The position numbers were made by a program, and so were the translations under genes. From the NCBI GenBank assembly GCA_001599295.1, contig BCGN01000004.1:682346-746345 (forward strand): DNA of 64,000 bases, written 5' to 3'. Under the pieces are notes generated by a model. It worked only from the letters and a program-made list of their open reading frames with translations, searched no databases and was not told where the DNA came from. Each line of letters opens with the position of its first letter. Positions within the stretch are counted from its first letter, which is position 1. Below, piece after piece: positions 276 through 63,783 of the stretch. The stretch comes from Sporopachydermia quercuum. Lineage: Eukaryota > Ascomycota > Sporopachydermiomycetes > Sporopachydermiales > Sporopachydermiaceae.

Positions 276-1895
276 ATGAGTTCTGCAAATCGGCAAACTA
301 ATGCTCAACCAAATGGAGAGCGGGCACCTTTACTTCAACACGATCAGGAATTAGGTCCGGAAGAAGAATATTACGAAGAAGAAGAAAGCAAATCAACCAA
401 GATAGTTCTGTACTCGTCGTTGGTAGGATTAGTTGTTTTGGTTTTATTTTTATTTGTCTACTATATTCCTTTTGTTTTGTATCCGCCGCAAGAGGTAACA
501 AATATTCTTCCATTGACTAAGGTTGCAAGTTTGAATCTCACAAAGTTAACTGATGAAGCTAGTATTCTCCCAATAGATACACAGAGAAAATCACCAAAAC
601 GGAAGGTACGAAAGCATACTAAAGATTTGGAAGACTATAAATCAAACTATGAAAATTTCCCATTATGGGATGATTGGTCTCTAATGAGAGAAATTCCTGA
701 TACGAGAATCATTCTTTTTGGAGATGTTCATGGGACCTACGACGAGCTGGTAGAAATGTTAGACATTCTGAACTATACTTCAACAATAGTACCTGGAACC
801 ACAGATAGGGTTTACAACGACAAGGTTGTTCTATTGGGCGACTTTGTATCAAAAGGTCCAGATTCCTTAAAAGTTGTTGAACTGGCATATAATGAGTCAT
901 TTTCTTGTGTTCGAGGCAATCATGAAGAAATCGTGCTAGATAAATATGCAAAATTTCACCACTTACCATATTCAAAGATCAACCTTACAACAAATGATTC
1001 AGACTCCAAACCTAAGAAAAAAAGGCCTCATAATGCCACATCAATTGACGACTACTTAGAATCTGAGGGCAGTGATGTTAGTATTGCAGTTAACAGAGGT
1101 TCAGAAAAGTGGATTGCTAAACATCTTCCTCCAAATCATGTTCGATACATTTCATCTTGTCCTTCTATTCTTGAGTTGGGGCCCTTTGCTATCAATGTCA
1201 AGAAGCCAAAAGGAGTGGGTTTATTTAATGAGTTTTCTGATGAAGATCTAGAATTTATCACCGATGACGTTGACGATGACGATGACGATGAGGATAACGA
1301 AGATCTTTTCCCAGTTTCCGGGAAAACAAGCGATGGACTTGGACTTGGTGCAATCCCTATTGCCATCAAATCTCCCAGAATCAAACATCAACATTTTGGA
1401 ACTGTGCAGATTTCAAAACGATTCAAGAAAATTAATAGAGCCGTTGGTGTTCATGCAGGGCTCCAATGGAATCGCAAGAACTTGGAGAATCAGAATCCAA
1501 TTGCAACTTTCTCTATGAGAACTTTGGGCGGTCCTAATTTTACTATCCCATTTGAATTGAACCATTGTCAAGGTCAAATTGACGAATTGTATCCTCCTGA
1601 GGATGAAACTAATCCCAGTGTTTTGAAAAAGGATCCCAATTGTAAGAATTGGGCCTTAGTATTCAATGATTATCAAAAGACAGCGTTACCAGAACACAAC
1701 CGAACAACGGTATTCTATGGTCATGATGCATCAAGAGGTCTTAACATTAAAAGGTTCACTAAGGGTGTTGATACTGGTTGTGTTTATGGAGGACGGCTTA
1801 CTGCGTACATTATCACTATCACTCAGCAACCTAAAAAGTCATATCCGCTTATTTCTCATGATACAGTTTCTCTGAAATGTAAACCTTACGCATAG
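276..1895 (+). CDS. PPN2: Vacuolar endopolyphosphatase, Ppn2-type metallophosphatase
   Basis: Calcineurin-type metallophosphatase of about 539 residues, orthologue of S. cerevisiae YNL217W, which cleaves inorganic polyphosphate in the vacuole. Seen: a single membrane segment at about residues 43-69 after an acidic tail, so a type II membrane protein. The metal-ligand motifs follow in order: GDVHG (about 149-153), GDFVSKGPDS, GNHEE, VGVHAGLQW and YGHD near the C-terminus. A DDDDDDED acidic insert sits between the third and fourth motifs. The frame is open upstream of 276, but codon 276 is the first ATG and gives the natural MSSANRQ start. RAP1 follows on the same strand, as YNL216W follows YNL217W in S. 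cerevisiae. The family assignment is secure; the vacuolar location is taken from the orthologue. Confidence 0.93.
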   Translation: MSSANRQTNAQPNGERAPLLQHDQELGPEEEYYEEEESKSTKIVLYSSLVGLVVLVLFLFVYYIPFVLYPPQEVTNILPLTKVASLNLTKLTDEASILPIDTQRKSPKRKVRKHTKDLEDYKSNYENFPLWDDWSLMREIPDTRIILFGDVHGTYDELVEMLDILNYTSTIVPGTTDRVYNDKVVLLGDFVSKGPDSLKVVELAYNESFSCVRGNHEEIVLDKYAKFHHLPYSKINLTTNDSDSKPKKKRPHNATSIDDYLESEGSDVSIAVNRGSEKWIAKHLPPNHVRYISSCPSILELGPFAINVKKPKGVGLFNEFSDEDLEFITDDVDDDDDDEDNEDLFPVSGKTSDGLGLGAIPIAIKSPRIKHQHFGTVQISKRFKKINRAVGVHAGLQWNRKNLENQNPIATFSMRTLGGPNFTIPFELNHCQGQIDELYPPEDETNPSVLKKDPNCKNWALVFNDYQKTALPEHNRTTVFYGHDASRGLNIKRFTKGVDTGCVYGGRLTAYIITITQQPKKSYPLISHDTVSLKCKPYA

Positions 1896-2180
1896 TATAT
1901 ATTACCGTACTAGATCATCATTTGTTGTTGGATTCTCCAATATCTTACAAACTGGTGATCTAACAGTACACTGTTAGACTTTCTCATCATTCCAACACTT
2001 TCAGTTGCTCGACAGCTTCATATATCTTTATCTTATTCATACCTTTTAATAGAAATAGTTCAATTCCACTGTGAACTCTTTGAATATGCTGATCAAATAC
2101 TGTCATCAACCGCGCCTCATCCCACCCTATGGCTGACAAATTCTATCACTGTCTCATCTCCCATATGTCTATTGTATCTT

Positions 2181-2186
2181 CACGTG
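2181..2186. promoter_or_regulatory. CACGTG E-box upstream of RAP1
   Basis: A perfect CACGTG palindrome lies 405 bp before the RAP1 start codon. In yeasts such sites bind bHLH factors such as Cbf1 or Pho4. Function here is inferred from the motif only. Confidence 0.35.
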
Positions 2187-2306
2187 CCTCTCCTAAATCA
2201 CATGACATTCATTTCCCATCATCAGTCTTTCTCCTTCCCCTCTCAAATCAATGAAAACCCAACCACCTTCAAAAACAAACAACTTCCTTTCAGAAAGAAG
2301 AGTTTT

Positions 2307-2488
2307 ACACCCTTTCCTTCCCATTCAACTAACCTGATACTGAAAAGTGGTTTAATCAGATTTAGTACTATCTTACACCCGTCAACACAGGTTATTACTC
2401 TATTTTGCAAAAAATAGTACGATAAGAAAAGTAAAAAAACCGTTGTGTTTAGTCCCTCTCCCTTGATAAGGAACGCTGTTTTACACCC
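2307..2488 (+). promoter_or_regulatory. Three TTACACCC motifs upstream of RAP1, candidate Rap1 sites
   Basis: The hexamer ACACCC occurs at 2307-2312, 2375-2380 and 2483-2488, each time preceded by TT and always on the coding strand. The last copy, ACACCCATAACC, is close to the known Rap1 consensus ACACCCRYACAYM. All three lie 100-285 bp before the RAP1 start, which suggests autoregulation. The motif match is seen; binding is inferred. Confidence 0.5.
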
Positions 2489-2590
2489 ATAACCGCCAAA
2501 GAGTTGGTTAGCTTTTAATAAATATTCGCAAAAGTCAATTAAGACTTTTGTGATTGTAATAATATATCAACCACCTTCTCAGAACCTCAT

Positions 2591-4750
2591 ATGTCAGAAC
2601 ATGGGAGTCATAGTCGGGAAGACTACAATTCGTTTACAAACGATGATGTTACCAATGGCAATGTTGATGATTTAGAAGTGTCAGTTGACATTGTTNTTGG
2701 GGATGCGACAAACAATGGTAATAAAGACCTACTTGAGCCAGATAATGGCAATGTCCAAGTTGATACTCGTCTGTTAGAACGTGATGCATTAGCAGAGGCT
2801 CAAGCAGCTTCCGAAAATGAAGAATCAAATGATGATTTGCAAGCACCTGATCACGAAAATGATAACCAACCTATAAAAATGTTTACCATTCATGATCCCA
2901 GTACTGGCAGACTGGCATCATTACGATTTTATGTTGATCCTTCGATTCCTAATTCTGCTAGTATAATTGAATTAGTTGTTTCAAATGGTGGTGACTTATC
3001 GACTCCTGGTAATGATACAATTAATTTAGTTCATCGTAGCTATAAACAACCCGTTGTCAGAAGGCCATATCCAACATATGATGTACAATATATTTATGAT
3101 TGTTTACACGAAGGTATCTTGAAAGATGTGTCTACATACTTGGTACATGTTGGAGAAACAGAGGAATTTGATGATGCTATTACTTTAGCTAGAGAAGCCG
3201 CATCTGCTGGTGGTCAAGTATTGGATCATGTCAGTTTATCGGAAAATAGTAATGGCAATGGTAACACAGGAGCTAATTCAGTCAGACATGTTACTACCAA
3301 TCAACTAGGAATGAATAGTACTGATCAAGAAATCAGTAAACCAAAAAAGAAAGAAAAGAATTCTTTTACTGTTCATGAAGACGAATTAATTCTTCATTGG
3401 GTAAGAAAAATGCCTCATAAGCGTTATTCACATGCGTTTTATAAAGAACTCTCTGGTCAAGTCCCAAGACATACACCCCAATCAATTCGTGATAGATATA
3501 GAAAGTTTCTTGATAAAAGGCTTGATTATGTGTATGTGCCAATCCCTGATTCTCGTTTGAGTTTGAGTGATGATGAAGCTTTTCTGAAAAATGAAGATGG
3601 TAGTTTTGCTCGCCAGGAAAAACCAACTGAAACGCTGAAAAGAAAATTCACGGAACAAGATGATTATGATTTAGCGTTGTATGTTAATGCTCATCCTAGT
3701 TCACCCCGTTCGCAAAACTTTTTCAACAACTATGCCAAAACGAATGCAAGACATCCTGGTGATTCATATCGTGATAGATTCAGAAAACATTTAAGCCGTC
3801 GAACAATTGAAAGAGTGATAAGAGATTATGAAGAGAAATATAGTCTACCCCTAACGGAGATCCATCCACCAACAGTTGTTCCAGCTAGAAGAAGAGGTTC
3901 ATATCCTCCCAAGCATGAAAATACTGAATCCATAACACCACAACAAGTTACCACCGTTCAACAAGATCAGCAGAATGACCAGCAATTACAAGCATTACAA
4001 CATATCGGTGACGAAGAACTACGACAGTTTGAAGAACGTGCAAAGAGATCAGTTAATGAGTTGAGTGTTGATGAATTTGATCCTGATATAGCCCAAAGTG
4101 CAGTGGAACAAGTCACTAAGGTTGATGTCGATGATAAACGATCACAATTTGATCCTGCTTTAACTGATTTTGCAACGGATGAAGACAAATATGCGCCAGC
4201 AGTCAAAAGGGTTCGTAAGTCTAGTAAAAGAAAAGAACGTGAATATGCTGAAGAACAGGCCAAAGCTGCAGAAGAAGCTGCTGCTGCCGTTGTTGCTGCT
4301 GCTGCATTGTCAGACGTCGATCTTGTCGGAGCAACAAATACTATTTCTGATGAATTGTTGAATATGGATGCCATCGAATCTGCTTCTCATGGTATTCATT
4401 TTACTCCCTATACTCCACCAGTCAATTTCTATGAATCATTAAGACATTATGTCACGGAATCTAAGCGAAATAATGACATTAGTATTCTTTATGAAGGCAT
4501 GACAAAAGGTTTAGGAATGCCAGAAGATTTATATGAAAATCTCTTCAACAGAATTATTGGTGGTATTCATTTATTTGAACAACTCTGTCACTCCTTTTTC
4601 GAGAAAGGTGAGTATCCCACTGATGTTCCTGGTTTATGGTCTTTGGAAGATGATCGATTACTTGAAGAAGGTGCTAATGATGATATACTCATGAGAAAAC
4701 ATGGAGAAGCAAGAGTTGAAGCTAGGAAGAATTATCTGGGAATAAAATAG
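2591..4750 (+). CDS. RAP1: Telomere- and promoter-binding protein Rap1
   Basis: Orthologue of S. cerevisiae YNL216W, which binds telomeric repeats and many promoters. The 719 residues carry the full Rap1 layout. A BRCT domain lies at about 94-185. The first Myb-type DNA-binding domain is at about 255-316 (VHEDELILHWV to YRKFLDKRLDYVYVP) and the second at about 350-416 (KFTEQDDYDLALYV to RDRFRKHLSRR). An acidic, Gln- and Ala-rich linker follows, then the C-terminal RCT domain from about 610, with the family signature VPGLWSLEDDRLLEEG at about 677-692 and KHGEARVEARKNYLG at the end. The RCT recruits Rif and Sir proteins in S. cerevisiae. C. albicans Rap1 is known to lack it, so its presence here is informative. 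One ambiguous base falls in an early codon. Confidence 0.96.
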   Translation: MSEHGSHSREDYNSFTNDDVTNGNVDDLEVSVDIVXGDATNNGNKDLLEPDNGNVQVDTRLLERDALAEAQAASENEESNDDLQAPDHENDNQPIKMFTIHDPSTGRLASLRFYVDPSIPNSASIIELVVSNGGDLSTPGNDTINLVHRSYKQPVVRRPYPTYDVQYIYDCLHEGILKDVSTYLVHVGETEEFDDAITLAREAASAGGQVLDHVSLSENSNGNGNTGANSVRHVTTNQLGMNSTDQEISKPKKKEKNSFTVHEDELILHWVRKMPHKRYSHAFYKELSGQVPRHTPQSIRDRYRKFLDKRLDYVYVPIPDSRLSLSDDEAFLKNEDGSFARQEKPTETLKRKFTEQDDYDLALYVNAHPSSPRSQNFFNNYAKTNARHPGDSYRDRFRKHLSRRTIERVIRDYEEKYSLPLTEIHPPTVVPARRRGSYPPKHENTESITPQQVTTVQQDQQNDQQLQALQHIGDEELRQFEERAKRSVNELSVDEFDPDIAQSAVEQVTKVDVDDKRSQFDPALTDFATDEDKYAPAVKRVRKSSKRKEREYAEEQAKAAEEAAAAVVAAAALSDVDLVGATNTISDELLNMDAIESASHGIHFTPYTPPVNFYESLRHYVTESKRNNDISILYEGMTKGLGMPEDLYENLFNRIIGGIHLFEQLCHSFFEKGEYPTDVPGLWSLEDDRLLEEGANDDILMRKHGEARVEARKNYLGIK

Positions 4751-4945
4751 TCATGAGAAAGAATAGTGACAAAAGAAAGTAAAGTAAGAGAGACATAAAT
4801 TGCACCTTCAATGAATCTATGATGATTTTAAGTACAATAATTTTGTATATTTTTATTATTCTTATGAAACCCGTTGTATATTAATCTGAACTACATTAGA
4901 TGAGATCGAACAACACGACTTATTTACTGTAAACAAACATTCTAT

Positions 4946-7267
4946 TCAAATCGTAGCAACTCCTTCTTCTCTAGGTTCTTCTTTGACAATAATATCCTCC
5001 TTGCTTAGAAGCTGCCGTAATTCAGGTTCAACATGAATGTACGTGTTTTTAGATGATGATGCTGACGCTGATAATTTATTATTAGTACTAGCAGTATCTT
5101 TTTCCTTCTTATTGCTTTCATCGTCGTTAGCACTACTGTCAGCTTTGCTTTTACCTTTATCATCATCTTTTGGAACTTCAGCTTCATTGGCACTCTCAGT
5201 ACGTTTATTTTCGTCGTCTGTTGGATTTTCTCCAGTATATCCATTTTGCAAGTTTGATTGATCAATTAATAGAATCCTGTTCCTGAATTTCAAAAACAAG
5301 TACTCTGCTCTTATCAAAATATCTTCTAATTCAATTTGGCCACTAAGATCATTCATATACTTGAGTACTTCATCAAATCTAGTCAGATTCTCCATGATGA
5401 TTCTTTTATGTTTATGAAGAATAGCCAGAGCAACAAATAAGTGAAACTGAGAAGAATAGTAATTTGTCCATAGAACTTCCCACAGTCTGCAGGTATCCTT
5501 CCAATCAAATTCTCGCTTGAACCACACAAGAATCATTCTGAAAAAGAAGAATAAGTTTGCTGAGTCTGTTTTCAACAAATGCTCATATAAGTCAGGTAAC
5601 ATAAAATTCGTCAAATGAGAAAGACATAATAATTGATCTTTCATACCTGATTGAGACCTTAGGAACCCTCTTTCCGTCTTTTCCATGAATTTGGTAAAAG
5701 CAGCAAATGATAAGTGCTCAGATCGATCTAAAGTTATATATAAAGGAGATAACAAATCTGACATTCCTTGAACGTATCCTAGATTTATATCGTATTGATT
5801 GAATGTAAGAAGAATACGTTTTAATGCTTCAAGGTTTTTATTGGTATACTCACTAATCTCTTCTGTATTAGGATCCGTATTTTTCATATCGAGTTCTTTA
5901 TACTCTTCTCTTGATCTATCAGTTCGCATTATATCTTTGAAGATACGGAAATTCTGATCTTTGAAATATTCATCTTTAGTTCTTAAATCATAATCTTCTT
6001 CCCACTGATTCAAATACATATTATAGGTGTCTTTCCAACCTTGAGAAATATCCTCACGGGCTTTACTAGAAGAGCTCCAAGGATAAACACCCAAAAGAAA
6101 CAGCCATGCTTCTTTTCTAACGCCATCATTTTTTAATCCACCATGGAAAATACGTTCAATAACCTCATCACTTGTAATAGATAAATGGCCAGTATGATCA
6201 AAAAATTGTTCCCATTCGACCTTAGTAACTTCATTTCGTCTTTGAATGACTTCTTCATCAATTGCACTATCTCCAGTTTTACTGCCTTTCTCATTAGCAC
6301 CAAATAACGTCTTATAGCGATTATCTAACTTCATACTCCGTATTCTACTCCTTTCTGCATCTTCAGAAACCTTTAATGCCCATTTGGCCAAGTAAACTTG
6401 AGCAGATTCAAAATCCTGACCGACTTGCTTGACTTCAGGGGTCTGTAAGTATGACTTAATGATTGGTGGTGAATTATCAACAACTTCCTTCACAGTTTTC
6501 TTAGAAAATAATGAAAGCTTAGCAAGTTTTTCCAATACCTGAAACTTAACATCATTAATAGTATGTAAAAGGTCAGGTTGCTTCTTATTTCTCTTTATGT
6601 TTTCAGCTTGGGCAGCCCGAGGACTGAATGATCTTCTATCTGCTTCATCAGGGTTGATCAAATAACAAGAAGGTTCTAAAGTGGATCTTTCAACAACTGC
6701 GAATCTTTCTAATGCAGTAATAAATTGATCACCTCCCCAAAAGAGATGAGAGCCAGATTTAGAGGAAGAAAATGGGTCAAAAGCTTTATTTCGTTCTTGT
6801 TGTTCAGCTTTTGTAGATGGACATGTATCGTCATGAAAAAAAAGAACAGGACATCGATTGAAGCTATCGCGAGGATTTATTACTATTGAGCCATACCACC
6901 AGCCAGGAGACGGGAATCTTACTTCAATCGAAAAGATTCCTTTCAATTGAAGTGAGAATGAATACTCAGATATAGAAGACAATAATGGTTTAGCAACAAA
7001 GTACTCCCTTGATGTGCCTCCGTATTCCATATCTACCATGTTATAGATCTCAGCTTCTTCTTTATCAAGCATATGTTCGGGAACCCAAGCAAGTAATAAA
7101 TCTTTGTTAGTTTCAGTGCCATGTTGTTTGGCAATGAATAAAAACCCTGGTATATTATCTTTTGAATCTGACGAAGGATGAAGATAGATTTGAGATTTCA
7201 CATAGAGGAGCTGTATAGCTCTTTCTGAGTTGATAGCTATTGTGCTTTTAGGATGTAAATGCGACAT
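4946..7267 (-). CDS. GYP7: Rab GTPase-activating protein Gyp7, TBC domain
   Basis: Orthologue of YDL234C, the GAP that switches off the vacuolar Rab Ypt7. It has 773 residues. The N-terminal half has the Gyp7/TBC1D15-type region (FPSPGWWYGSIVINP). The TBC domain spans about 370-600, starting at FHGGLKNDGVRKEAWLFLLG. The catalytic arginine finger is in IMRTDRSREEY (about 446) and the glutamine finger in LGYVQGMSDLLSPLY (about 497). The C-terminal 90 residues are low-complexity Ser/Lys/Asp-rich. The gene converges on RAP1 with a 195-bp gap and is divergent from IES2. In S. cerevisiae it sits next to MFG1, which here is one gene further on. Confidence 0.94.
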   Translation of the reverse strand: MSHLHPKSTIAINSERAIQLLYVKSQIYLHPSSDSKDNIPGFLFIAKQHGTETNKDLLLAWVPEHMLDKEEAEIYNMVDMEYGGTSREYFVAKPLLSSISEYSFSLQLKGIFSIEVRFPSPGWWYGSIVINPRDSFNRCPVLFFHDDTCPSTKAEQQERNKAFDPFSSSKSGSHLFWGGDQFITALERFAVVERSTLEPSCYLINPDEADRRSFSPRAAQAENIKRNKKQPDLLHTINDVKFQVLEKLAKLSLFSKKTVKEVVDNSPPIIKSYLQTPEVKQVGQDFESAQVYLAKWALKVSEDAERSRIRSMKLDNRYKTLFGANEKGSKTGDSAIDEEVIQRRNEVTKVEWEQFFDHTGHLSITSDEVIERIFHGGLKNDGVRKEAWLFLLGVYPWSSSSKAREDISQGWKDTYNMYLNQWEEDYDLRTKDEYFKDQNFRIFKDIMRTDRSREEYKELDMKNTDPNTEEISEYTNKNLEALKRILLTFNQYDINLGYVQGMSDLLSPLYITLDRSEHLSFAAFTKFMEKTERGFLRSQSGMKDQLLCLSHLTNFMLPDLYEHLLKTDSANLFFFFRMILVWFKREFDWKDTCRLWEVLWTNYYSSQFHLFVALAILHKHKRIIMENLTRFDEVLKYMNDLSGQIELEDILIRAEYLFLKFRNRILLIDQSNLQNGYTGENPTDDENKRTESANEAEVPKDDDKGKSKADSSANDDESNKKEKDTASTNNKLSASASSSKNTYIHVEPELRQLLSKEDIIVKEEPREEGVATI

Positions 7268-8447
7268 TATGGATAATTGGTTAATGAGGATATAATTAGT
7301 TAATGATGATCTGAATGGAAAGATTCACTCTTATTTAATCCTTCAGCGAAAAATAATTAAGAAACTTATCCCAAATCGAATATTCAATTAAAGTAAGTGA
7401 TAATAAACCGTTGTAGCTTCCAATAGTGGTAGAAGTCTTGCTTGAAGTCTTCCTTGAATCTAACACTGCTGACAATCAGTAGTCACTAATCAGATGAGAA
7501 ACAACCAATCTTACTATATGTCTGCCCTGCGAGATACCAAACCGGCTGTAGAACTGGAGAGAATCAAAAATATATCCTTGTTATATTCTCAATATCAGCA
7601 GTTATTTCATGAATTCAAACTTCTCCCTATTTATCCATTGTCCTTATATGAATGACAGATAAAGCCATAAGTCAAATCATCGCCTTCAATTATATAGCGA
7701 TTTTAACTGTAAATGGAATAGGGTCATAGAAACTTTAAATGTATTTGAGTTTGATGTTTTTCGAATGGTGGGCAAAGAGTGTGGGAAAGGAGAGCTAATG
7801 GCTCATTTCGCAGGNTAGCTAATGAAATTCTAGCTGATGAGAAAGTGTCCTTCAATGGTTGCTATTCTTATTTATGACTCTCTTTTTGAAATTTTTACTT
7901 CTAGTGTAACTGGGGAAATTTTACCTGGATGATTTACTTTTGACGTTTGATGATGAGATGGAAAATGAAACTGATAAGGTAATTGAGTTTTTGACTTGCC
8001 TCCGCAGCTTTCATGCATCATATATGCAGTAATAATGCTATTTGTTTGTCTTTTGTTCTGTTAATTTCCTATGGCGGAGAACGCGCTTCACAAGAACTAT
8101 ATCAGAACCAGAGTGAAGCTTTGGCAAATATATTATTCTTCTGATTACTATTTTCTCAAAACAACAGTGTCATAATTTGTTTATNAACCACTATTTACTT
8201 TGTTTTTTGGTCGACGCTGCGTGTCATTGAAGAGCTTTGACTACCAATATCGGAGATTATACTGCTTAAACGATATTTATCGTTTCCGAAATTGATATAT
8301 GTCAATTCACAAAAGAAGCNATTTGTCCTATCACTTCCTCTTGGTTTCAACCATTAGTACTAATTAACTATAAAGAATTCCCAGAAATAAATTTATCAAT
8401 ATATCTTGTACATCTATTATACAATAATATTGAGTGAGTTTAGTAAC
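7268..8447. other. Intergenic, divergent GYP7/IES2 promoter region
   Basis: This 1.18-kb stretch separates two divergently transcribed genes. It is AT-rich, has three single ambiguous bases (7815, 8185, 8320) and no reading frame longer than about 60 codons. I see no tRNA or repeat. It should hold both promoters. Confidence 0.6.
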
Positions 8448-9790
8448 ATGGGCAAAAAACCTCAAAAAACGGGTTTAGATTCTGACTCTGAATTGTCAGA
8501 ACTGTCCTCAGGAGAAGAGGTACTGGTAGAGAATGTTGACAAAAGTATGTATAGAATTACTGTCNTGAAACTTTCAATTATTATGCAAAAGAGTACTAAT
8601 GGAGTTTGTATTTAGAGCTTTCTAAGCTAACAGAAGACTCAGAAGATGAGGATTCAAATCTAGATGATTCAGTAGACGATTCGGAAGGGGACTTGTCATC
8701 TGGTTCAGAGTACGAAGATGAAATGGTATCAGAGAAGGTCAATAGCAAAGGAAGTAGAAGGTCTTTAAGAGCAAATCAAAAACAGAGTAATTCACGCTCA
8801 GACGTCAATTNCGATAATGATAATGATTCTGACGACGAAAACGAAGAAGACGATGACATGGATGACGATGACGAGGACGATGTATCAGAAGATGATGAAG
8901 TGGATGATGATGATTACGGTGACGACGATGAGGCTATACGATCTACTAGATCTCATAATACGCATTATATCAAAAGAGACATAACAGAGGATGCTGAAGA
9001 AGGAGAAATTGGGGAAGATGATGATGAAGAGGAAGAGGAAGAAGATGATAACGATAATGATAATAATGAGCATGACGAGGACGAGGGTATGTCACAAGAA
9101 GTTTCTCAAATTGAGATTGCCCGTCCTGTGCATGGAAATGGTGAAGTAGATGATGAAGATGACGAAGAAAATGAAGTTGAAGANGATGAAGAAGCCGATG
9201 AGCAACCAGATGAAGAGGATGACGATGAAGGTGACGATAACGAAGATGGGGACCTAGATGATGATGATGAAATGGATGATGATGATGATGATGATGAAAG
9301 CTCGGTTGCTGATGGACGTAATATAGATATTGCGGATGACGATGAGGTAGAATCAGAAAGTGCATGGACCACGGGTTATTCCACCCCCGATTTATCCCGA
9401 ATGACAGAAAGGCAACGACAGATGCTTACGTCTGAAAAAATAGATAATAATATTGAAGAGCAGTATTCCAAACTACCAGCGTTTCAGTCATCAAAGAAAA
9501 GAATATGGACAGAGGAAGAAATACAATTGAAACGTGCTGAAATGGCGAGAAAACGGAAGAATTTGAGTCAAAAGAGACTAGAGGAGGAGAAGAGAGATAC
9601 TTTAAATAAATTACTACGGAAAAGAGCAGGAAAATCTGATTCTCGGACTGATGAAGAAGATAGATTTGCATCAATTATTGATAAGCCTAGAAGGCCAATG
9701 ATAGAGCATGAGGCTTTTATCACATGGAGATCTAATAGCTCGAAAGAAACACTGACTGTTCCTAAGCAGCTTTTCACGTCTCAAACGTGA
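8448..9790 (+). CDS. IES2: INO80 complex subunit Ies2, spliced
   Basis: Orthologue of YNL215W, a subunit of the INO80 chromatin-remodelling complex. Two exons: 8448-8544 and 8616-9790, 423 residues. The 71-nt intron has a GTATGT donor, a TACTAAT branch at 8594-8600 and a TTTAG acceptor; splicing joins VENVDK to KLSKLTED in frame. The middle of the protein is an extremely long Asp/Glu run, with two ambiguous codons. The C-terminal part holds the PAPA-1/INO80B-like signature EEEIQLKRAEMARKRKNLS, EEEKRDTLNKLLRKRAGK, then EHEAFITWRSN, which defines the family. The position between RAP1 and PEX17 matches S. cerevisiae. The acidic tract length is probably not conserved. Confidence 0.9.
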
Positions 9791-10730
9791 TATGGCTCTG
9801 CTTTGTTATATTCATTCAATGAAAAACTGATGTATATCAAGTTACCAGCTCTATATTTCTGCTCAATACTATTCATTCATGTTTATGGTAGAGAGAAACT
9901 GGTGTAGTTTCCTAGAGCAGCTGCTGGAAGTTCGAACATGTAATTTATCTTAAACCTTATTCGAAGTGCAGATTTGGTATAAGAACTTTAATCGTAACTC
10001 CATCAACCTCTCTTTATTGGAGACAGACACACAGTCAAATTCATACTCAGAAGTAAATAGCTCATAGCATTATCATTCTTTGGATATTAAATCCTGTTAT
10101 AAATAACGTTCAATTATAATGCTAATGTCTTAGAATTTTTATTTTTCCTGAGCTCCTTCCCATATATTTTCCTACTAGCTTACTTTTCAGTCATGTGAAC
10201 CCCTACAATGCTCGTAATGCATGTATTATGCATAAATCATCCTCTCCTTGAACTTAATTTCATGGCGTAATTTTTCCATCAAAGTTATCCACTATTATAC
10301 TTTTCTGTAAGCTCTGCCCACATTATCAAAGATTCACATTGACAGGTTAATTTAACACCGGCATCCAGCGCAAAAACCACTAATGCAGATATCATTCTTT
10401 TTCCTTATCGACAGCAACAACACGGTTTATGATTACTAGTTGGCTTTCACTGTGGTGCTATATTAACTGATAGAAGTTACCTGAGACATCTATCANAGAT
10501 AGGACAGAATTCTAGATTGAAAGGCTTTTATTATCTGAATAGTACCAACAGGTCTGTCTATAAGTACAAAGAATTAGTAGATAAAAATTGAATTCTGCGC
10601 TAATTTTTTGCTCATATTTTGTTCAAGAAAAGAGGATGATACTTTTCCGATAATTGCAGAAAAACACGCTAAAGGTTTTTGTTTGGCTTGGTAGTTTTGA
10701 ACAAGGTTGTCTTGTGTCATCGATTCAACA
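9791..10730. other. Intergenic, MFG1 upstream region
   Basis: A 940-bp gap between two genes transcribed in the same direction. It holds the IES2 3' end and the MFG1 promoter. It is AT-rich, with one ambiguous base near 10496. I see no gene, tRNA or repeat; long leaders are common for filamentation regulators. Confidence 0.5.
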
Positions 10731-15117: not shown

Positions 15118-15389
15118 TGTTTAAGTAAAATTTCTTATTAATAGTATAATATATGTACAAGTAATCATATTCTGGATTTAATGTTCATATTGTGGTCAAC
15201 TTTTCTGTTTATCCATCTAATCTTTGTTCTTTAACACGAGAATTTGGATCAAATACTTGTATCTTTCCTATATTTTGCTAGCATTATTGCTTGATATTGT
15301 CTATAGCTGTGAGAAAATGGTTCATTAACTAAAAATTGATCACTTCTGAACGCTCGTTCACCTTTTGTGGATAATTATTGAATCGCCAT

Positions 15390-36614: not shown

Positions 36615-36654
36615 GCTAAAGAGCTAAAGAGCTAAAGAGCTAGAAAGCGAAAGT
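36615..36654. repeat. 8-bp tandem repeat GCTAAAGA
   Basis: Three perfect copies of GCTAAAGA run from 36615 to 36638, followed by two degraded copies to 36654. It lies in the GPA1 upstream region. Confidence 0.85.
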
Positions 36655-37041: not shown

Positions 37042-37319
37042 ACTTAGCCGAATGTGCAACAGTAAATTCAGAAAATGCTACCATTCGGATATGTTACAGC
37101 TGAGAGCTTTAAAGTAGCTGAAAGATGGCTGGTAGACAGATAATACACAGGTAAAGTAAATTGATTAGCAAATTAATAGAAGAAGAATTCCAAATGTATG
37201 TACGAAGTTAAAATAAACGGGTCTGTATTGTATTGATTGTATAATATGGTATCATAGTTTAGAACACCCAGTGTACCTGGACTGAACACCACGGACTAAC
37301 TGATCGTCAAAATGGTAGC

Positions 37320-42330: not shown

Positions 42331-42362
42331 GTGACTGAACGGACAGATAAATAGAGGAAATG

Positions 42363-52426: not shown

Positions 52427-54619
52427 ATGTCTCTTCAAGCGTCAACTCAACATCCTTGGGATAACCTGATCAATTATTTGCCCGCTCCAAACCCTAGGCA
52501 AGTGCTGAGAATTGCAATTCGGCTCAAAGAACTAATTGATAAAGTAGTACCAATCGAATTCGAAACGTCACTGATTACCAAATCAGATTCTTCAATTATA
52601 ACATCTAACGTTATAGAACTGGTTAAAAAGTCCGCTGGTGGTAAAGGTAATGGAGAAAGAGGTACATCTTCACGTAAATATAGAGCTTGCTTACCATTTG
52701 CTCTCTTAACTGTTTCCAGATGGTATAAGGAAATGAAAGTCTCTGAATTGTATGATGCTGGTCTTTATGATGGTAGAAGCTTAGCAGCCCAATATATTGC
52801 TAAGAGGTTGATAGAAGAATGGGATGAAACAGATGAAGAGTACTTATTTATTAATGTGTTATGCCAGAAATTCAAAATTGTACGGAACCACAAAGTATCT
52901 GATCCTGCTAATATATTAGAATTAGCAATTGACTCTCATTCAACACTTGTTATCTGCTCAATTGGCTATCAAAGATGTATGAAATGGCTTTGGAGAGGGT
53001 GGATTATTCAAGCAGAAGATGAGCCAGAGAAGTTCGTCTTCTATAAAGGAACAGGAGTTTGTGATTTCAGATCTCATTTTGATCCTCAACGTATAAAGAC
53101 TCCAATGTATCAGAATATTATCATTATCCTGTTTTCATTTATTTATCTTTTTCTTTTCACTATGGGAACTACGTTCAGCTCACCTGATGAGATCAGTTTA
53201 AATATATGGGAAGTTGCATTTTATATTTTCACATTAGCATTCATATTGGATGAATGTGTTAAATTTTATCATGTTGGTGTTTCATATATTGGATTTTGGA
53301 GCGCATTCAATGATACAATGTATATTATAATATGTGTATCATTTATTCTAAGAATGATTGCATTTTCCAAAACTGACCCTGAAGTTATTGATCATTTGAA
53401 TGACAAAGCATTCAAAATCCTTGTATGCGTTTCACCAATGATGTGGACAAGATTATTATTCTATCTTGACGCTGAAAAGTTCTTTGGTGCACTTCTTGTT
53501 GTTGTTAAAGAAATGATGACAGAATCAATCGTGTTCTTTGTTTTATTGATAGTCATCATCATTGGATTCTTGCAAGCATTCTTAGGTCTTGATGCTGCTG
53601 ACGGTGCGTCTGAAGTCACCTCCTTAGTTATTAGTAATATGCTTCAAACTGTTATGGGAGGCGGAGATTTTGACGCGTTTGACAGATTTGAACCTCCATA
53701 TGCCAAAATCCTTTACTATTTCTTTTGCTTCTTAGTAACTGTTATTTTACTGAATATTCTTATTGCTCTTTATAATTCCGCATATCAGAACATTTATGAC
53801 AATTCTGATGATGAATACCTTGCTTTGGTATCACAGACTACTCTGAGATTTATAAGAGCACCTGATGAACATGTTTTTGTTCCTCCACTCAATTTGTTTG
53901 AAGTTTTATTGGCACCACTTGGTCTAATAGTTTCAAATCGGGTTTATGACACTCTTAATTATTATACCATGTTGATACTCTATTCACCTTTCTTACTATT
54001 TATATCAATATATGAATGCCGTGAAGCAAAAAGAGTATCGTATAATCGTCTAAGAGGTGCTCTGGATGATGATAATGAAACAGATACTGAATGGGATTTG
54101 GAAGATGGATATTCAAATAGTGGATTTTTAGGACTCGACGGCTCAACAGCTGAGAATATTCAACGTGAATTACTCAGCCAGAATCAAGCAGAAACAAGTG
54201 ATCCTGAGTTTATCATTGATCATGAAAACTGGTTAAAACAAGTTGATGAGATAGCACCTAAAGTTGATGATGCAGAAAAGTATCATATCAACTGGGAATT
54301 ATATCCTTTATTGACGAGAGTGAANAAGCTGACAGCCTTAGTGGAGAAATTGATAGAAGATAACTCAAATCTTCGCGAGAGTATTAGAGAAATGAGTAGA
54401 GAGCCAGATACGGATGAACAGAATATCAGCGAGGTACCTGAAGTTGTTGATGGTAATACCGATAGCACTNATAAGTCTAGAAATGAGGAAAATACATCTG
54501 GTGATAGTAAAAGTGTCAATGAAGAGCCCAAAAAGGATAATAATGACGGAAAACAACCATCAGTGATGAAGAGGAAGAATAACAACAGAAATAAAAAGAA
54601 TAAACGGAAGAGTAATTGA
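52427..54619 (+). CDS. YVC1: Vacuolar TRP-type cation channel Yvc1
   Basis: Orthologue of YOR087W (TRPY1), the mechanosensitive, calcium-activated vacuolar cation channel that releases calcium on hyperosmotic shock. 730 residues. A cytosolic N-terminus of about 225 residues carries the family segments ACLPFALLTVSRWYKEMKVS and LYDGRSLAAQYIAKRLIEEW. At least six membrane segments follow between about 226 and 455, with the pore region SNMLQTVMGGGDFDAF (about 405-420) and the last pore helix LYYFFCFLVTVILLNILIAL. A further hydrophobic segment at about 505-530 lies past the channel core. The C-terminus has an acidic patch (DDDNETDTEWDLEDG), where yeast Yvc1 senses calcium, and ends in a Lys/Asn-rich tail. 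Two ambiguous codons. Confidence 0.93.
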   Translation: MSLQASTQHPWDNLINYLPAPNPRQVLRIAIRLKELIDKVVPIEFETSLITKSDSSIITSNVIELVKKSAGGKGNGERGTSSRKYRACLPFALLTVSRWYKEMKVSELYDAGLYDGRSLAAQYIAKRLIEEWDETDEEYLFINVLCQKFKIVRNHKVSDPANILELAIDSHSTLVICSIGYQRCMKWLWRGWIIQAEDEPEKFVFYKGTGVCDFRSHFDPQRIKTPMYQNIIIILFSFIYLFLFTMGTTFSSPDEISLNIWEVAFYIFTLAFILDECVKFYHVGVSYIGFWSAFNDTMYIIICVSFILRMIAFSKTDPEVIDHLNDKAFKILVCVSPMMWTRLLFYLDAEKFFGALLVVVKEMMTESIVFFVLLIVIIIGFLQAFLGLDAADGASEVTSLVISNMLQTVMGGGDFDAFDRFEPPYAKILYYFFCFLVTVILLNILIALYNSAYQNIYDNSDDEYLALVSQTTLRFIRAPDEHVFVPPLNLFEVLLAPLGLIVSNRVYDTLNYYTMLILYSPFLLFISIYECREAKRVSYNRLRGALDDDNETDTEWDLEDGYSNSGFLGLDGSTAENIQRELLSQNQAETSDPEFIIDHENWLKQVDEIAPKVDDAEKYHINWELYPLLTRVXKLTALVEKLIEDNSNLRESIREMSREPDTDEQNISEVPEVVDGNTDSTXKSRNEENTSGDSKSVNEEPKKDNNDGKQPSVMKRKNNNRNKKNKRKSN

Positions 54620-54831: not shown

Positions 54832-56079
54832 TTACTCCCTACGTTTTTCTGCAACCCAATACTCACAATTATATATCCAACCACCCATGGCCCTATTATC
54901 ACCACCATAGCTACTTTTAATACCAGATTCCCTGAAAGTAAACTCAAATCCCAATTTATCAGCAAGTTCAATTAAATCATCCAATGACAGTTCTAGTCCA
55001 CGTCTGGTAGAAGTAACTAGTTCTTTAGTTAAAATAATTTCACCGTCATCATTAATCTTCTTAACATTTCTATATTCAGTAGCCATACTATTATCATCTT
55101 CAAAATGCCATAACAAAGGACCAAAGTTAATCCATTTTCCACCAAGTTTTAGACAATTATGTATGGTTTTCAAGTAGTCTATGATATTACTTGCGGTATC
55201 AATAAAAAACACTGTTACCACGTAATCCCAACTATCTTTATTCTCATTTTGAAACTCTGCTGACTCCTTGTTGAAATTCGGATCCATTGATTTGATATCT
55301 GGCGGTCCATATAAATCAGTAAATGATCCTGCTGACATTGACAATAGTTCTGTAAAATCAACATCTGGATTTTGCCTCATACATTCTTGAAATGTCTCTA
55401 AAGGATTTGAGTCAGGAATATATATTGGCCGAATTTGGTTTGTTCTTGCTGATAGATGGGAAAAACTGTAAATNAATGGGAAAAGAGTAAACTGATTAGC
55501 AACATACGTCTTGTTCAGTATATAAGATGATAGTAATAACATATGATATGAAAATTCATTTCCTTGAGCACTAAATCCTTGTTGAGCAAGCTCTAATGGT
55601 AATCTTCCTAATCCTGCTCCTGGAACAAGTATTTTCACCTGTGATCTTGATTGGAAATCCGAATGATGAGCCCTTAGGTATTCGAATATTCGCTCTTGAT
55701 ATAGTCTTCTCTCGCCTTCACCTTCTTCACTCCATTCTCGTACTATTTGTCTTAGTAATGATCTTACTTTATCAAGATCCTGTCCTGAGCATTTCGACCA
55801 TAAATTAGTATCGCTAGGAGCTTGCCATTCTTCTGCAATCTCCCGAGCAATGGTTTCAAAGAAAGTTCCGTTTGATGCTATGCAACTATCTAAAGCTTTT
55901 AAATGTGATTCGAACCATGGAATCAGTTGCTGTTCTTCAGTCGATAGAGAAGCATACTTCAATTCCCTTGGATTAGTTACTTGAGATCTAGACCATTTCG
56001 AAAATGATATAAATGCATCAAGAACTGAAGTTAGAGCTTTGTATTCTTCTGGATCGTTCTCTGGTGCTGAAGACTTCAT
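54832..56079 (-). CDS. Carnosine N-methyltransferase-like protein (YNL092W type)
   Basis: Orthologue of YNL092W, N2227 family, S-adenosylmethionine-dependent, like vertebrate CARNMT1, which methylates carnosine and related dipeptides. 415 residues. The SAM-binding motif ILVPGAGLGRLPLELA is at about 150-165, followed by NEFSYHMLLLSSYILN. The motif DYVVTVFFIDTASNIIDYL with KLGGKWINFGPLLWHFED is at about 295-345, and LELSLDDLIELADKLGFEF follows. The N-terminal WFESHLKALDSCIASNGTF region is family-typical. The natural substrate in yeast is not settled. It sits one gene from NST1 on the same strand, as in S. cerevisiae, with YVC1 inserted between. Confidence 0.92.
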   Translation of the reverse strand: MKSSAPENDPEEYKALTSVLDAFISFSKWSRSQVTNPRELKYASLSTEEQQLIPWFESHLKALDSCIASNGTFFETIAREIAEEWQAPSDTNLWSKCSGQDLDKVRSLLRQIVREWSEEGEGERRLYQERIFEYLRAHHSDFQSRSQVKILVPGAGLGRLPLELAQQGFSAQGNEFSYHMLLLSSYILNKTYVANQFTLFPXIYSFSHLSARTNQIRPIYIPDSNPLETFQECMRQNPDVDFTELLSMSAGSFTDLYGPPDIKSMDPNFNKESAEFQNENKDSWDYVVTVFFIDTASNIIDYLKTIHNCLKLGGKWINFGPLLWHFEDDNSMATEYRNVKKINDDGEIILTKELVTSTRRGLELSLDDLIELADKLGFEFTFRESGIKSSYGGDNRAMGGWIYNCEYWVAEKRRE

Positions 56080-56886: not shown

Positions 56887-57207
56887 ATGTCAGGAGCAGT
56901 ACCATTCTCAGAGGCCAACAGAAAGTTAGTTGCTTCATTATACAGAAGATCATTACGAACGTCCTTGAGTTGGATCAACAGAAGAGAACATTTCAGAAAG
57001 ATGGCAGTTCAAGTCCGAGCCAAGTTTGATGAAAACAAAGATGTGAGAGATCCTAGAGAATTGCAGGAGATTTTGAAGAAGACTGAAGCTCTATTAACCA
57101 AATTCAAACACCCCGATCCAATTATTCCTCCTCAGAGACCAGGTGGAACCAAATACGATAGAAATATTCATCCTCGTTTGGATCCACCTATTGTGGAGCA
57201 ATGGTGA
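56887..57207 (+). CDS. Respiratory complex I subunit, NDUFB9/B22 type (LYR protein)
   Basis: 106 residues with the LYR motif at the start (VASLYRRSLRTSLSW) and the B22 continuation REHFRKMAVQVRAKFDENKDV, then PRELQEILKKTEALL and PDPIIPPQRPGGTKYDRN, ending PPIVEQW. This is the small accessory subunit called NI2M or NDUFB9. It binds the mitochondrial acyl-carrier protein at the tip of the membrane arm. The length fits fungal members. Complex I genes are absent from Saccharomycetaceae, so this rules out a close Saccharomyces relative. The stop codon overlaps a GTGAGT string, but there is no reason to invoke splicing. Confidence 0.9.
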   Translation: MSGAVPFSEANRKLVASLYRRSLRTSLSWINRREHFRKMAVQVRAKFDENKDVRDPRELQEILKKTEALLTKFKHPDPIIPPQRPGGTKYDRNIHPRLDPPIVEQW

Positions 57208-58853: not shown

Positions 58854-59531
58854 ATGGATTCTTATTCAAGTATCAAACCTACCACAGCTGTTAAGCTAGT
58901 ACTACTAGGAGAGGCAGCAGTTGGCAAATCATCGCTTGTATTGAGATTTGTTTCAAATGAGTTCCAAGAGAATAAAGAACCAACAATTGGCGCAGCATTC
59001 TTAACACAACGATGCAGTGTTGGTAATCGAACGATCAAGTTTGAAATTTGGGATACAGCAGGACAAGAAAGATTTGCTTCGTTAGCTCCGATGTACTATA
59101 GAAACGCTCAATGTGCATTAGTTGTTTATGATGTTACGAAATCTGCCAGTTTCATTAAGGCTAGACACTGGGTTAAAGAATTACATCAACAAGCTAGTCC
59201 AGGTATAGTGATTGCGTTGGTGGGGAATAAGCTCGATTTATGTGAGAGTGAGGATGGAAATGAAGGGGAAGAGAACTCGAGTAGAAAAGTTGCATATGAG
59301 GAAGGTCAACAACTTGCTGAAGAAGAAGGATTATTGTTTTTTGAAACCTCTGCAAAAACTGGATTTAATGTTAAAGAAGTATTTACAAAGATCGCTACTC
59401 AGATACCAGAAGAATCAGGTAAAAGAGGTTTAAATGGTGAAAGTGTGAATGATCCAAGTGGTAATAATGAACGAATAGATCTTTCAGCACCAGCTGCTGG
59501 TAAAACTGGTGGAAATGCTTGCTCTTGTTAG
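58854..59531 (+). CDS. VPS21: Endosomal Rab5 GTPase (Vps21/Ypt53 type)
   Basis: Rab5-class GTPase for endosomal fusion, corresponding to the VPS21 (YOR089C) and YPT53 (YNL093W) pair that arose by genome duplication in S. cerevisiae; here there is one copy in this window. 225 residues from the ATG at 58854. Motifs: P-loop GEAAVGKSS (about 18-26), switch [13 protein letters not shown], switch [34 protein letters not shown]. The protein ends in CSC, a double-geranylgeranyl signal. The upstream frame has no ATG. The next genes are PTC5 and TMA46, as in YOR089-091. Confidence 0.94.
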
Positions 59532-59932: not shown

Positions 59933-61579
59933 TTACAATTTTGGTGTCAATTCAGGGAATGTCTTTGTAGCTTGTTTGTTCACTTCAATCAAGCCATTTG
60001 GTGATTCATCATCACCGAAAAACACTACTGTAACGGTTAAATCGTCTCTATACCTTCTGGATTGAGGACTAGGAACACTTAGTAACATTCCGACTTGTTC
60101 TTTATCACTTCCACCTAATGCATTTCTAATCAAATGAGTGGCGACATTATCATCTTCAACAACATAGTTTCCCCTTCCTCTCCGGAATGGCTGTTTCAAA
60201 ACCCCGCTATCTGGTGTGACGTCTCTAACGGAAGGTAAAAATGAAGTTCTGTTGAATAAACCTAACCATGTTGATGATTTAGGAGCAACTGCTTGTGCTT
60301 GGGTAGTAGTTGATATGCCGCTTTCATCAGCCTTCTCAGTACCATTAACAGGCTTTATTTTCTTGACTTCCATCCATTTAGCAACCAATCCAACAATCTC
60401 CTCATTTGATAGCAATTCATACAACCCATCCGAACCAATAACCATAAATTTATCATTAGCAGTAATCTTAGTATTTGTTACTTCAGGATCAGCCGTAACA
60501 TAAGGTGGAGACTGTAATCTGAAGGGAGGTTTTTGGCCAAAGAAGTTTTGAGAGATCTTTTCTTGGATTTCTTTGGTCCACTTATATTTGGCATCACCAA
60601 ATGCTCTTGAAGGTTCTAGGCTTCCCAGAACTCTACCACGCGATACAACGTTTGGCTCACCAGGATGTTCTTTTCTTAGCCTGTCGGCTTCTNTAGGATT
60701 ACTACCAGTTTGATCAATACTTAAAGCTTTCACTGTCCAATTGCCCTTTTCATTATTAGAGCCTAAAACAACTCTGGAATCACCTGTAACGGCAACTCTA
60801 AGTGATCTTGTGGCACTATCGAAGAAAGTCAGTAAACCACAAGAGCCACTGAGAGCTGGCAGAATTAGGTCAGCAACGTTATTTCTATTAATGGTGTTCA
60901 TATTATCTAGTAATGTTCTCATATTCTTATTAACGATTTCATCATCTAACTCTAAAAACGCCTTTTTAATTGCTTGATCAACGATAGTAGGATCTGCAGG
61001 CAATACTCTGTATGGTGTCTTCTTATCACTATCCCTACCTGGTTTATAGGCATCAGTGCTTAATTCCTTGATTACGTAGTCAATCAATGAATCTCTGAGC
61101 TTGGCTGAGGTTGTCCAACCAGAGTGACCATCATAAACACCCCAGAACATCCAGTCAGAGTTCACAACTTGATCTTTACTATCAACTGATGAAACAGGCA
61201 CTTGAATAGTCTTTTCTGAACGATCATCTTCAATTGGATTATTACTAGGCAGCTGACAGATATCGTATCTAATAACACCGTTTCCCCTACCAACAATGTA
61301 ACTTTCCTCAAATTCTCTTAGCTTTTTATTGATCCCCATATCTGACATAGAAAAAGTTTTAACAGTCTTGTTTGGGATTATTGATGCTGATGAGAATGAT
61401 TTAGAAATGCCTGAGTCACAAGCAATTGGTTGATTCAGTTTTTTGAAGCTTGAAGAGATCCCAGTTAAACCTCCTGCAGGATAAAAAGCATATGACGCTG
61501 CAAGAATAACACCAGAAGTGACGGCAGCTCTAAACCCTAATGAGTTGAGTATGGATGGAATTCTTCTTGCTTGAGGCAT
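59933..61579 (-). CDS. PTC5: Mitochondrial PP2C phosphatase Ptc5
   Basis: Orthologue of YOR090C, the phosphatase that reactivates pyruvate dehydrogenase in mitochondria. 548 residues from the ATG at 61579 (MPQARRIPSILNSLGFR), an Arg-rich amphipathic start followed by a hydrophobic stretch (AAVTSGVILAASYAFYPAGG). The frame runs 22 codons further upstream without ATG. PP2C metal motifs: FWGVYDGHSGW (about 150), SGSCGLLTFFD, VTGDSRVVLGS, RVLGSLEPSRAFGDAKYKW, and VIGSDGLYELLSNEEIV (about 390). A second conserved aspartate is in RRYRDDLTVTVVFFGDD near the C-terminus. It is divergent from TMA46, as in S. cerevisiae. One ambiguous codon. Confidence 0.94.
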   Translation of the reverse strand: MPQARRIPSILNSLGFRAAVTSGVILAASYAFYPAGGLTGISSSFKKLNQPIACDSGISKSFSSASIIPNKTVKTFSMSDMGINKKLREFEESYIVGRGNGVIRYDICQLPSNNPIEDDRSEKTIQVPVSSVDSKDQVVNSDWMFWGVYDGHSGWTTSAKLRDSLIDYVIKELSTDAYKPGRDSDKKTPYRVLPADPTIVDQAIKKAFLELDDEIVNKNMRTLLDNMNTINRNNVADLILPALSGSCGLLTFFDSATRSLRVAVTGDSRVVLGSNNEKGNWTVKALSIDQTGSNPXEADRLRKEHPGEPNVVSRGRVLGSLEPSRAFGDAKYKWTKEIQEKISQNFFGQKPPFRLQSPPYVTADPEVTNTKITANDKFMVIGSDGLYELLSNEEIVGLVAKWMEVKKIKPVNGTEKADESGISTTTQAQAVAPKSSTWLGLFNRTSFLPSVRDVTPDSGVLKQPFRRGRGNYVVEDDNVATHLIRNALGGSDKEQVGMLLSVPSPQSRRYRDDLTVTVVFFGDDESPNGLIEVNKQATKTFPELTPKL

Positions 61580-62622
61580 TCTTAATCGTTGATCGTGTGC
61601 AACACTATTGTTGTCGGTTCTTATTGCTAAGTTTACTACAGACAACTAGAATTACCTAAACTCGTATTAATGTCAAACAAAAACTATTATCTATGTTATG
61701 TAGTTTTTAATGACAATACCTCAATCAGAATTTGCTCAGGACTCAAATTAATCAAGTGCAATAACTCTTTTATGATATTATATAGCAGAGAGCAATTTGA
61801 TAGCCAATATTTGATATGATTCTCTGTTGGAGATTCATCCACAATTGGGAAAATCCGGAAAAGATGGTAAAAACGGAAACTATGTATAGAAGGAGGAGCA
61901 CCAAGAGTGTTTTATGGAACTGACTTTTGCTTCAGATTAAAAGGAAATGTTATAAAAGACAAATCCTATATATGTATACTTGAGACTTGAGTCAAAGTTC
62001 GAATAAATGAGGAGTATTAGTTAATATTTAGTTCACTATCTTTTATCAGTCATCAATCACTCATCTCCCCATACATCTCATTAAATATTCACATAATCAT
62101 AAACTAGTTATCTCCTCATTCCCAAAAATTATAATCACATGACTTCTCAAGTGATAATGTAAACTCTGTTTGCTTCACCCAAGCAAAAAAACTTTTCTAT
62201 GTAAATTCTGAAGACATCAAACGACATGAACCAAAGAACCATCAAGGAATAGTCAGTGATAATCTTTACCGGATAGATTATCGTCTGCTATTAAATGAAG
62301 GCTCATTGGAGTTCATTAATTGGAAAGAAGGAAGATCAGATTTTTTTATCTAGGGTTAATACTTCAGACTGTGAGAAGTTATCAAAGGCGTCTCTGCAAA
62401 ACAGGAAGAAGCAAGTCATTCACATCGATCATCTTGACCGACATCCTGACTTGTAACCTTTTCTCGGACCGTTTAATGTACTAGCGAAAACAGAGGCAAA
62501 TAAGCTGATAATAGTAGATAATACGTGACTTTGAAGCATATCAGAGCTTTAGGGTATTAGAAACATTCGTTGAATAGAAATAGCAAACGTTAACGGTCGG
62601 GTCTTACTGACTAATCGTCAAA
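61580..62622. other. Intergenic, divergent PTC5/TMA46 promoter region
   Basis: A 1.04-kb AT-rich gap between divergent genes. No gene, tRNA or repeat seen; both promoters should be here. Confidence 0.5.
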
Positions 62623-63783
62623 ATGCCTCCAAAGAAGCAAAAAGGAGGAAATGATAAAACCAGAGCAGCCAAAAAGGCTCAATCTACAGCAGACAAAACC
62701 TTTGGTTTAAAAAATAAAAACAAATCGTCAAAAGTTCAGAAATATGTTCAACAAGTGGAGACTCAAAACAAGGAGAATGCCCTAAATAAAAGGAAAGAAG
62801 CAGAATTGAAACGTAAAGCTGACGAAAAGAAGGCAGCAGCATTAGCTAAAGCAGAAGCAGCGGCATTATTTAATCCAATTATCCAACAAAAAGTTCCTTT
62901 TGGTGTCGATCCAAAATCAGTTGTATGTGCTTTCTTCAAACAAGGAGCATGTACTAAAGGTGCTAAATGTAAATTCTCTCATAATCTCGATGCAGACAGG
63001 AAGGTTGCAAAGAAAGATTTATATACAGATGCTAGAGAGAAAGATGAGAAAATAGAAGACACAATGGATAAATGGGATGAAGAAAAATTACGAGATGTTA
63101 TTTTGTCAAAGCATGGTAATCCAAGAACCACAACAGATATTGTATGTAAGTATTTCATCGAAGCAGTTGAAAATGGTAAATATGGTTGGTTTTGGGTATG
63201 TCCAAATGGTGGTAATGACTGTAAATATAAGCATTCTCTACCGCCAGGATTTGTTTTGAAAACTAAAGAACAAAGAAGACTTGAAAAGCTGGCTGCTGAT
63301 TCTGCTCCAAAGATCACGTTAGAAGATTTTATTGAAACTGAAAGACATAAATTGCCAAAGAATCTCACACCTATTACTTTGACTACTTTCAATGAATGGA
63401 AGAAGAAGAGAAATGAAAAGAAACTGAAAGATGCTGAAGAAGCGTTGAAGAAGAGTAAACAATTGACTGGTAGACAAATATTGCAGAGTGGAAAATTCAG
63501 ATCTAATGTTGATGGTGAGTTTGATGAAGATAATGATGATGGATCTCATGGTACCATTTGGGATCTGAAACAGTTCAAATCTGCTGTTGATGAAGTTGAT
63601 GATAATGAAGTCAAGGATTACGGTGATGGTGAAAATATTGTATTTGATGATGATTCTAAAGATAAGGACGAAGGAAATGGCAATGGAAAAGAAGAGAACG
63701 TTAATAATAAGGAGAATGGTAGTGAGAACAAGCAACAGGACAAAGTTGATCCTATAGGTACAACTATTACTGAATCAAACTAA
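62623..63783 (+). CDS. TMA46: Translation-machinery-associated CCCH protein Tma46
   Basis: Orthologue of YOR091W, a DRG-family-regulating (DFRP) protein that binds the GTPase Rbg1 and ribosomes. 386 residues. A basic N-terminus ([20 protein letters not shown]) is followed by two CCCH zinc fingers: [20 protein letters not shown] (about 105-124), and one starting [12 protein letters not shown] and ending [12 protein letters not shown] (about 175-205). The DFRP region holds [14 protein letters not shown] (about 230) and [15 protein letters not shown]. The C-terminus is Asp/Glu/Asn-rich. Position next to PTC5 matches S. cerevisiae. Confidence 0.95.

Follow-up and report, generated by a model that had tools for sequence, protein, structure and literature searches.

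Eremothecium (Ashbya) gossypii and Lachancea waltii belong to the Saccharomycetaceae, as, so far as is known, do all 11 of the yeasts behind the published reconstruction of the pre-duplication ancestor. In these and other species without the whole-genome duplication (WGD), one region merges two sister regions of Saccharomyces cerevisiae (PMC4529243; PMC5499181), a merged order that Wolfe (2015) describes as confirmation of the duplication (PMC4529243). The pre-WGD ancestor of Gordon, Byrne and Wolfe (2009), with the Anc_ numbers of the Yeast Gene Order Browser (YGOB), distributes 4,703 loci among eight chromosomes (PMC2675101), and Hession et al. (2025) report that in Phaffomycetales and Saccharomycodales, outgroup orders at about 208 million years, pre-WGD neighborhoods persist around centromeres (PMC12711049). 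Here we describe a 64-kb stretch of yeast DNA (the window), in which two runs of genes, block A and block B, each interleave genes that S. cerevisiae carries in two separate places, much as in the two non-WGD species and as expected for these genes in the reconstructed ancestor, and in which a complex I gene, NDUFB9, lies inside block B. The window resembles the Phaffomycetales and Saccharomycodales in that pre-WGD neighborhoods are recognizable in an outgroup, although those published regions lie near centromeres and no part of the window has been identified as centromeric.

Block A (276-19633) consists, from left to right, of PPN2 (YNL217W; 276-1895, plus strand), RAP1 (YNL216W; 2591-4750, plus), GYP7 (YDL234C; 4946-7267, minus), IES2 (YNL215W; 8448-9790, plus), MFG1 (YDL233W; 10731-13289, plus), PEX17 (YNL214W; 14437-15117, plus), RRG9 (YNL213C; 15390-16274, minus) and VID27 (YNL212W; 16992-19633, plus). 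The YNL and the YDL genes each keep their own order, and both order and expected strand agree with the S. cerevisiae tracks in eight of eight genes; no further gene was seen between the eight. A sequence-only reading of the window had proposed that YNL217-212 keep their order and strands with GYP7 and MFG1 (YDL234-233) slotted in, and block A bears this out.

Block B (43528-63783) consists of RHO2 (YNL090W; 43528-44758, minus), NST1 (YNL091W; 46265-50251, minus), YVC1 (YOR087W; 52427-54619, plus), YNL092W (54832-56079, minus), NDUFB9 (56887-57207, plus), VPS21/YPT53 (YOR089C/YNL093W; 58854-59531, plus), PTC5 (YOR090C; 59933-61579, minus) and TMA46 (YOR091W; 62623-63783, plus). Strands match the track in six of the seven genes having an S. 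cerevisiae counterpart, the exception being VPS21. The interleaving of RHO2, NST1 and YNL092W with YVC1, VPS21, PTC5 and TMA46 (YOR087-091) had been pointed out from the sequence, and it holds for the six concordant genes, whereas the flipped VPS21 had passed without remark.

Among mapped genes, 48 pairs are separated by no more than three positions in the gene order of the window, and 18 of these are also within two open reading frame (ORF) numbers of each other in S. cerevisiae, against 0.03 for a random arrangement, a count in which the pairs are not independent and for which the cut-offs were set after looking. Provided that the S. cerevisiae positions used here hold, chance is out of the question for these near pairs.

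The explanation that we consider very probable is that the window retains the pre-duplication gene order in a lineage that diverged ahead of the clade of Saccharomycetaceae and Saccharomycodaceae and was not involved in the doubling of the Saccharomyces genome. What we observe are the gene families with their order and strands, whereas the S. cerevisiae positions and the ancestral state are inferred. For most genes, the lineage leading to S. cerevisiae would then have lost one of the two copies, and each stretch would thus survive there as two complementary half-lists (YNL217-212 and YDL234-233; YNL090-092 and YOR087-091), while in this yeast each stretch would have stayed one list. We take the sister regions to be joined by the ohnolog pairs SSB1/SSB2 and CNM67/ADY3, and VPS21/YPT53 and ECM3/YNL095C. 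Martin et al. (2007) have argued for gradual segmental duplication (PMC2134927), and if the sister regions arose in that manner, followed by rearrangement, the interleaving would be a by-product and not a trace of genome doubling. Wolfe, however, comments as a reviewer in the same paper that such a scheme calls for several inversions nested in one another for each interleaved region (PMC2134927), and here an outgroup window is itself interleaved, with strands agreeing 8/8 in block A, given the S. cerevisiae positions used here. Because the interleaved order is found in an outgroup, interleaving is the older state, and we regard gradual segmental duplication as an explanation with next to no chance of being right.

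We also considered that the window might be an assembly chimera of unrelated pieces, which would make the presence of both merged blocks on one contig artificial. There are gene-poor gaps between pieces (2.5 kb at 19634-22146 and 1.6 kb at 27280-28918, without a clear gene), and the presence of 60 ambiguous bases suggests that the source was heterozygous or mixed. These are single Ns, however, and the window has no run of N; third-position G+C is even over four segments, at 0.276-0.295 (24 of the 25 gene models); no repeat of at least 24 bases was found in the window save a single inverted match, 31 bases long at 84%, that pairs a low-complexity stretch within PPN2 with one within NST1; and a join could not account for the way in which genes are interleaved within either block. 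A chimera is therefore very unlikely, and the joining of unrelated contigs, which the sequence-only reading had named as a finding that would speak against it, is made less likely by the lack of an N run and by the even third-position G+C.

To the right of block A lie GUD1 (YDL238C; 22147-23553, plus), SSU72 (YNL222W; 24134-24812, minus) and ATG4 (YNL223W; 25468-27279, minus). These genes had been correctly placed after VID27 from the sequence, without mention that the piece is inverted: all three strands are opposite to those expected, and order and strand agree in three of three genes once the piece is turned round. In S. cerevisiae, ATG4 and SSU72 presumably lie to the left of PPN2. We infer a single inversion, with breakpoints beside GUD1 and beside VID27, that would have joined GUD1-SSU72-ATG4, by its original right end (GUD1), to VID27, the rightmost gene of block A. 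An OST4-like small ORF (we take OST4, YDL232W, to follow MFG1 in the YDL track) was sought by motif and was not found in the window, although it might lie past the breakpoint after VID27, so that its absence says little. At a length of at least 24 bases the window holds no direct repeat family and only the one inverted pair given above, thus a repeat-mediated inversion cannot be shown. Rfam at its gathering score gave no match in the window and ARAGORN, run with the bacterial code (intron-containing tRNAs might escape it), gave no tRNA, thus no RNA gene serves to mark a breakpoint.

NDUFB9 (complex I subunit B22/NI2M) is intact and lies between YNL092W and VPS21. It matches the Pfam family Complex1_LYR, and its nearest relatives in the Protein Data Bank (PDB) are NDUFB9 rather than other LYR proteins: the NDUFB9 chain of 9iho (E-value 8.9e-37, residues 3-101 of 106) and NI2M of 6gcs (4.5e-33), whereas the best LYRM4 reaches 2.4e-04 and a further 9iho chain 0.85. 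We take it to have no counterpart in S. cerevisiae. Unlike E. gossypii and L. waltii, the window thus comes from outside the Saccharomycetaceae, which lack complex I, one loss of the complex having been placed in the ancestor of Saccharomycodaceae and Saccharomycetaceae (PMC8080010). NDUFB9 is likewise not expected in the Gordon ancestor, because that clade lacks complex I. The intact gene supports the earlier suggestion that this yeast kept complex I and branched before the Saccharomycetaceae, and together with the counts for block A (8/8) and block B (6/7) it supports the accompanying claim that the order is old and merged as before the duplication.

A more tentative proposal, to which we give slightly less than an even chance, is that NDUFB9, between YNL092W and VPS21, marks where a complex I gene originally stood, one since lost by the whole Saccharomycetaceae and Saccharomycodaceae clade, with the surrounding order surviving the loss. 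If so, the vacant slot in S. cerevisiae can be pinpointed, presumably beside YPT53 on chromosome XIV and VPS21 on chromosome XV, and relics may be sought there; other complex I genes could be approached in the same way. We consider this slot the most useful detail of the window and the part most worth following.

As to the lineage, 22 of 24 gene models contain CTG codons. In YVC1, the eight CTG codons inside the alignment with the solved YVC1 of the PDB face leucine five times, isoleucine once, aspartate once and asparagine once by eye, and never serine or alanine, thus CUG is probably read as leucine, which speaks against a place in the CUG-Ser or the CUG-Ala clade. The yeast probably belongs to a CUG-Leu lineage outside the Saccharomyces families, with Phaffomycetaceae as a best guess for the family and not as a result; Krassowski et al. 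describe the Phaffomycetaceae as the nearest of the outgroup clades (PMC6692504). Were the yeast instead of Pichiaceae type or from a more basal lineage, the order would be even older than argued here. Judged by the CUG codes of yeast lineages, a complex I gene and a probable CUG leucine fit such lineages too, and introns are predicted in 7 of the 25 gene models. The extensive reshuffling of gene order reported for methylotrophic yeasts (PMC3866509) speaks against it, however, as do the ancestral order still shared by Phaffomycetales near centromeres (PMC12711049) and the position of the Phaffomycetaceae as closest outgroup (PMC6692504), and we think a Pichiaceae-type or basal placement unlikely, if well within reason.

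Several points weigh against reading the window as retained pre-duplication order. Every comparison of order or strand depends on the S. cerevisiae systematic names and positions assigned to these genes, and covers this window alone. The strand of VPS21 is opposite to the prediction from both YOR089C and YNL093W; a small inversion would have flipped VPS21, perhaps together with its neighbor NDUFB9, on one side of the split. The PEX17-like protein has no Pfam match even at E-values up to 10, and PPN2 and RHO2 are supported at the family level only. In the literature, synteny is described as generally low in Barnettozyma (PMC12361814), methylotrophic yeasts are described as extensively reshuffled (PMC3866509), and no neighborhood evidence is reported for the Pdr clusters in Yarrowia and Debaryomyces (PMC2763886), all of which tell against long-range order.

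Ancestral order outside the Saccharomycetaceae has already been partly published (PMC12711049), thus an outgroup with some of that order is to be expected. A text search of the open-licence literature, covering listings and selected passages, returned no mention of these two blocks in an outgroup yeast. We therefore see the window as a clean further example of a textbook signature of the duplication and no surprise, with the eight-gene block, free of exceptions, as a good example. Knowledge of the duplication itself is unchanged. What the window adds is that this piece of the reconstructed pre-duplication order, at 8/8 in block A, predates the loss of complex I; it allows 18 loci (8 + 3 + 7) to be checked independently in an outgroup, brings up two inversions to be polarized and gives a place for a lost complex I gene.

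A Pfam family or PDB relative fits 17 of the 18 genes named in the sequence-only reading, which had assigned them to these places. That assignment stands for the 17, with PPN2 and RHO2 limited to the family level, and leaves PEX17 without a Pfam match. Eight genes are supported by Pfam families that we take to be single-gene in S. cerevisiae: VID27 (VID27 family, E-value 5.5e-177), SSU72 (Ssu72, 7.5e-60), ATG4 (Peptidase_C54, 3.1e-79), NST1 (NST1, 3.1e-44), YNL092W (the carnosine N-methyltransferase family CARME, 2.3e-86), MFG1 (LIM_bind, 2.3e-50), IES2 (PAPA-1, 4.2e-19) and RRG9 (Neugrin, 6.5e-09). The models of IES2, VID27 and SSU72 are spliced, with predicted introns at 8545-8642, 17114-17208 and 24445-24358, respectively.

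Members of larger families were assigned by their nearest solved relatives in the PDB. VPS21 matches YPT51 best (1.7e-78), followed by Rab5A (6.9e-59). YVC1 carries LHD_TRPY1 and YVC1_C and matches the calcium channel YVC1 (4.1e-167), and GUD1 carries Amidohydro_1 and matches yeast guanine deaminase (2.5e-137). RAP1 matches RAP1 (5.9e-22) and has the Pfam domains BRCT_2, Myb_Rap1, Rap1-DNA-bind and Rap1_C, so that BRCT, Myb, Rap1 DNA-binding and C-terminal domains are all present, presumably the full S. cerevisiae-type architecture. GYP7 carries RabGAP-TBC, with TBC1D15 and TBC1D17, which we take to be the animal counterparts of GYP7, at the top (9.2e-55 to 2.3e-47) and GYP1 at just 2.8e-07. 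PTC5 carries PP2C, and its sole two PDB sequences at E-values up to 1e-10 are pyruvate dehydrogenase phosphatase 1, by our assumption the animal counterpart of PTC5. TMA46 carries DFRP_C and zf-CCCH. The PPN2-like gene carries Metallophos (calcineurin-like phosphoesterase, 2.8e-11) with weak PDB matches to other metallophosphoesterases, and it is named by position; the PEX17-like gene is named only by place, size, strand and likeness.

RHO2 is absent from the ORF lists because it is split into six exons, which we assembled by splicing on the minus strand (44758-44730, 44588-44504, 44413-44334, 44237-44219, 43981-43889 and 43818-43528). The spliced product is a complete Rho GTPase of 198 amino acids, ending in CCAIL and matching the Ras family and Rho GTPases in the PDB. 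Rho1 and RhoA head the PDB matches, with no chain named RHO2 in the best 60 of 161; the tools support a Rho GTPase, at the family level only, and the name RHO2 rather than RHO1 comes from place and sequence features. The gene has five predicted introns and one exon of 19 bases. S. cerevisiae RHO2 is not known to have introns.

The middle stretch, 28919-42330, belongs to neither block, and its genes are elsewhere in S. cerevisiae or cannot be placed there. In order, and by Pfam matches where these exist, it holds a TES1-like thioesterase (plus, two predicted introns), an ORF of 358 amino acids (30715-31791, minus) with no Pfam family above the cut-off and, by eye, one possible transmembrane stretch, a short-chain dehydrogenase (SDR; about 33330-32398, minus), GPA1 (minus; top PDB match 9sh6, 'Guanine nucleotide-binding protein alpha-1 subunit', residues 1-470 of 470), a Ca3427-like periplasmic-binding-type protein (37320-38276, minus; PF22384, 6.8e-41) and DCP2 (plus, one predicted intron; DCP2 box A, 2.9e-24). 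We take the S. cerevisiae places of TES1, GPA1 and DCP2 to be YJR019C, YHR005C and YNL118C. The claim that each sister pair is merged into one over 276-63783 thus holds for two merged blocks, which are separate and accompanied by an inverted piece and by a middle foreign to both. Breakpoints may have brought in these middle 13 kb. Block A, DCP2 and block B are presumably each represented on the left arm of chromosome XIV; as a lead only, this may mean that rearrangement within one ancestral chromosome brought them together. The Ca3427-like protein has a bacterial-type fold and is encoded by a nuclear gene of the yeast.

Over the window as a whole, G+C ranges from 33 to 41% in 2-kb steps. There are 25 gene models, of which 24 were checked as open frames, spliced where needed, and contain no internal stops; the SDR model, which has introns judging from its frames, was left out of this check and of the third-position G+C. 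The 60 ambiguous bases are isolated, with 3 to 15 per 8 kb, a pattern expected of a heterozygous diploid assembly. Apart from the SDR, which is among the seven models with introns and is not fully modeled, there are 11 predicted introns (in IES2, VID27, SSU72, TES1, DCP2 and RHO2). GTATGT is the intron start preferred in S. cerevisiae; here the predicted introns start with GTAAGT in eight cases, GTATGT in two and GTAAGA in one.

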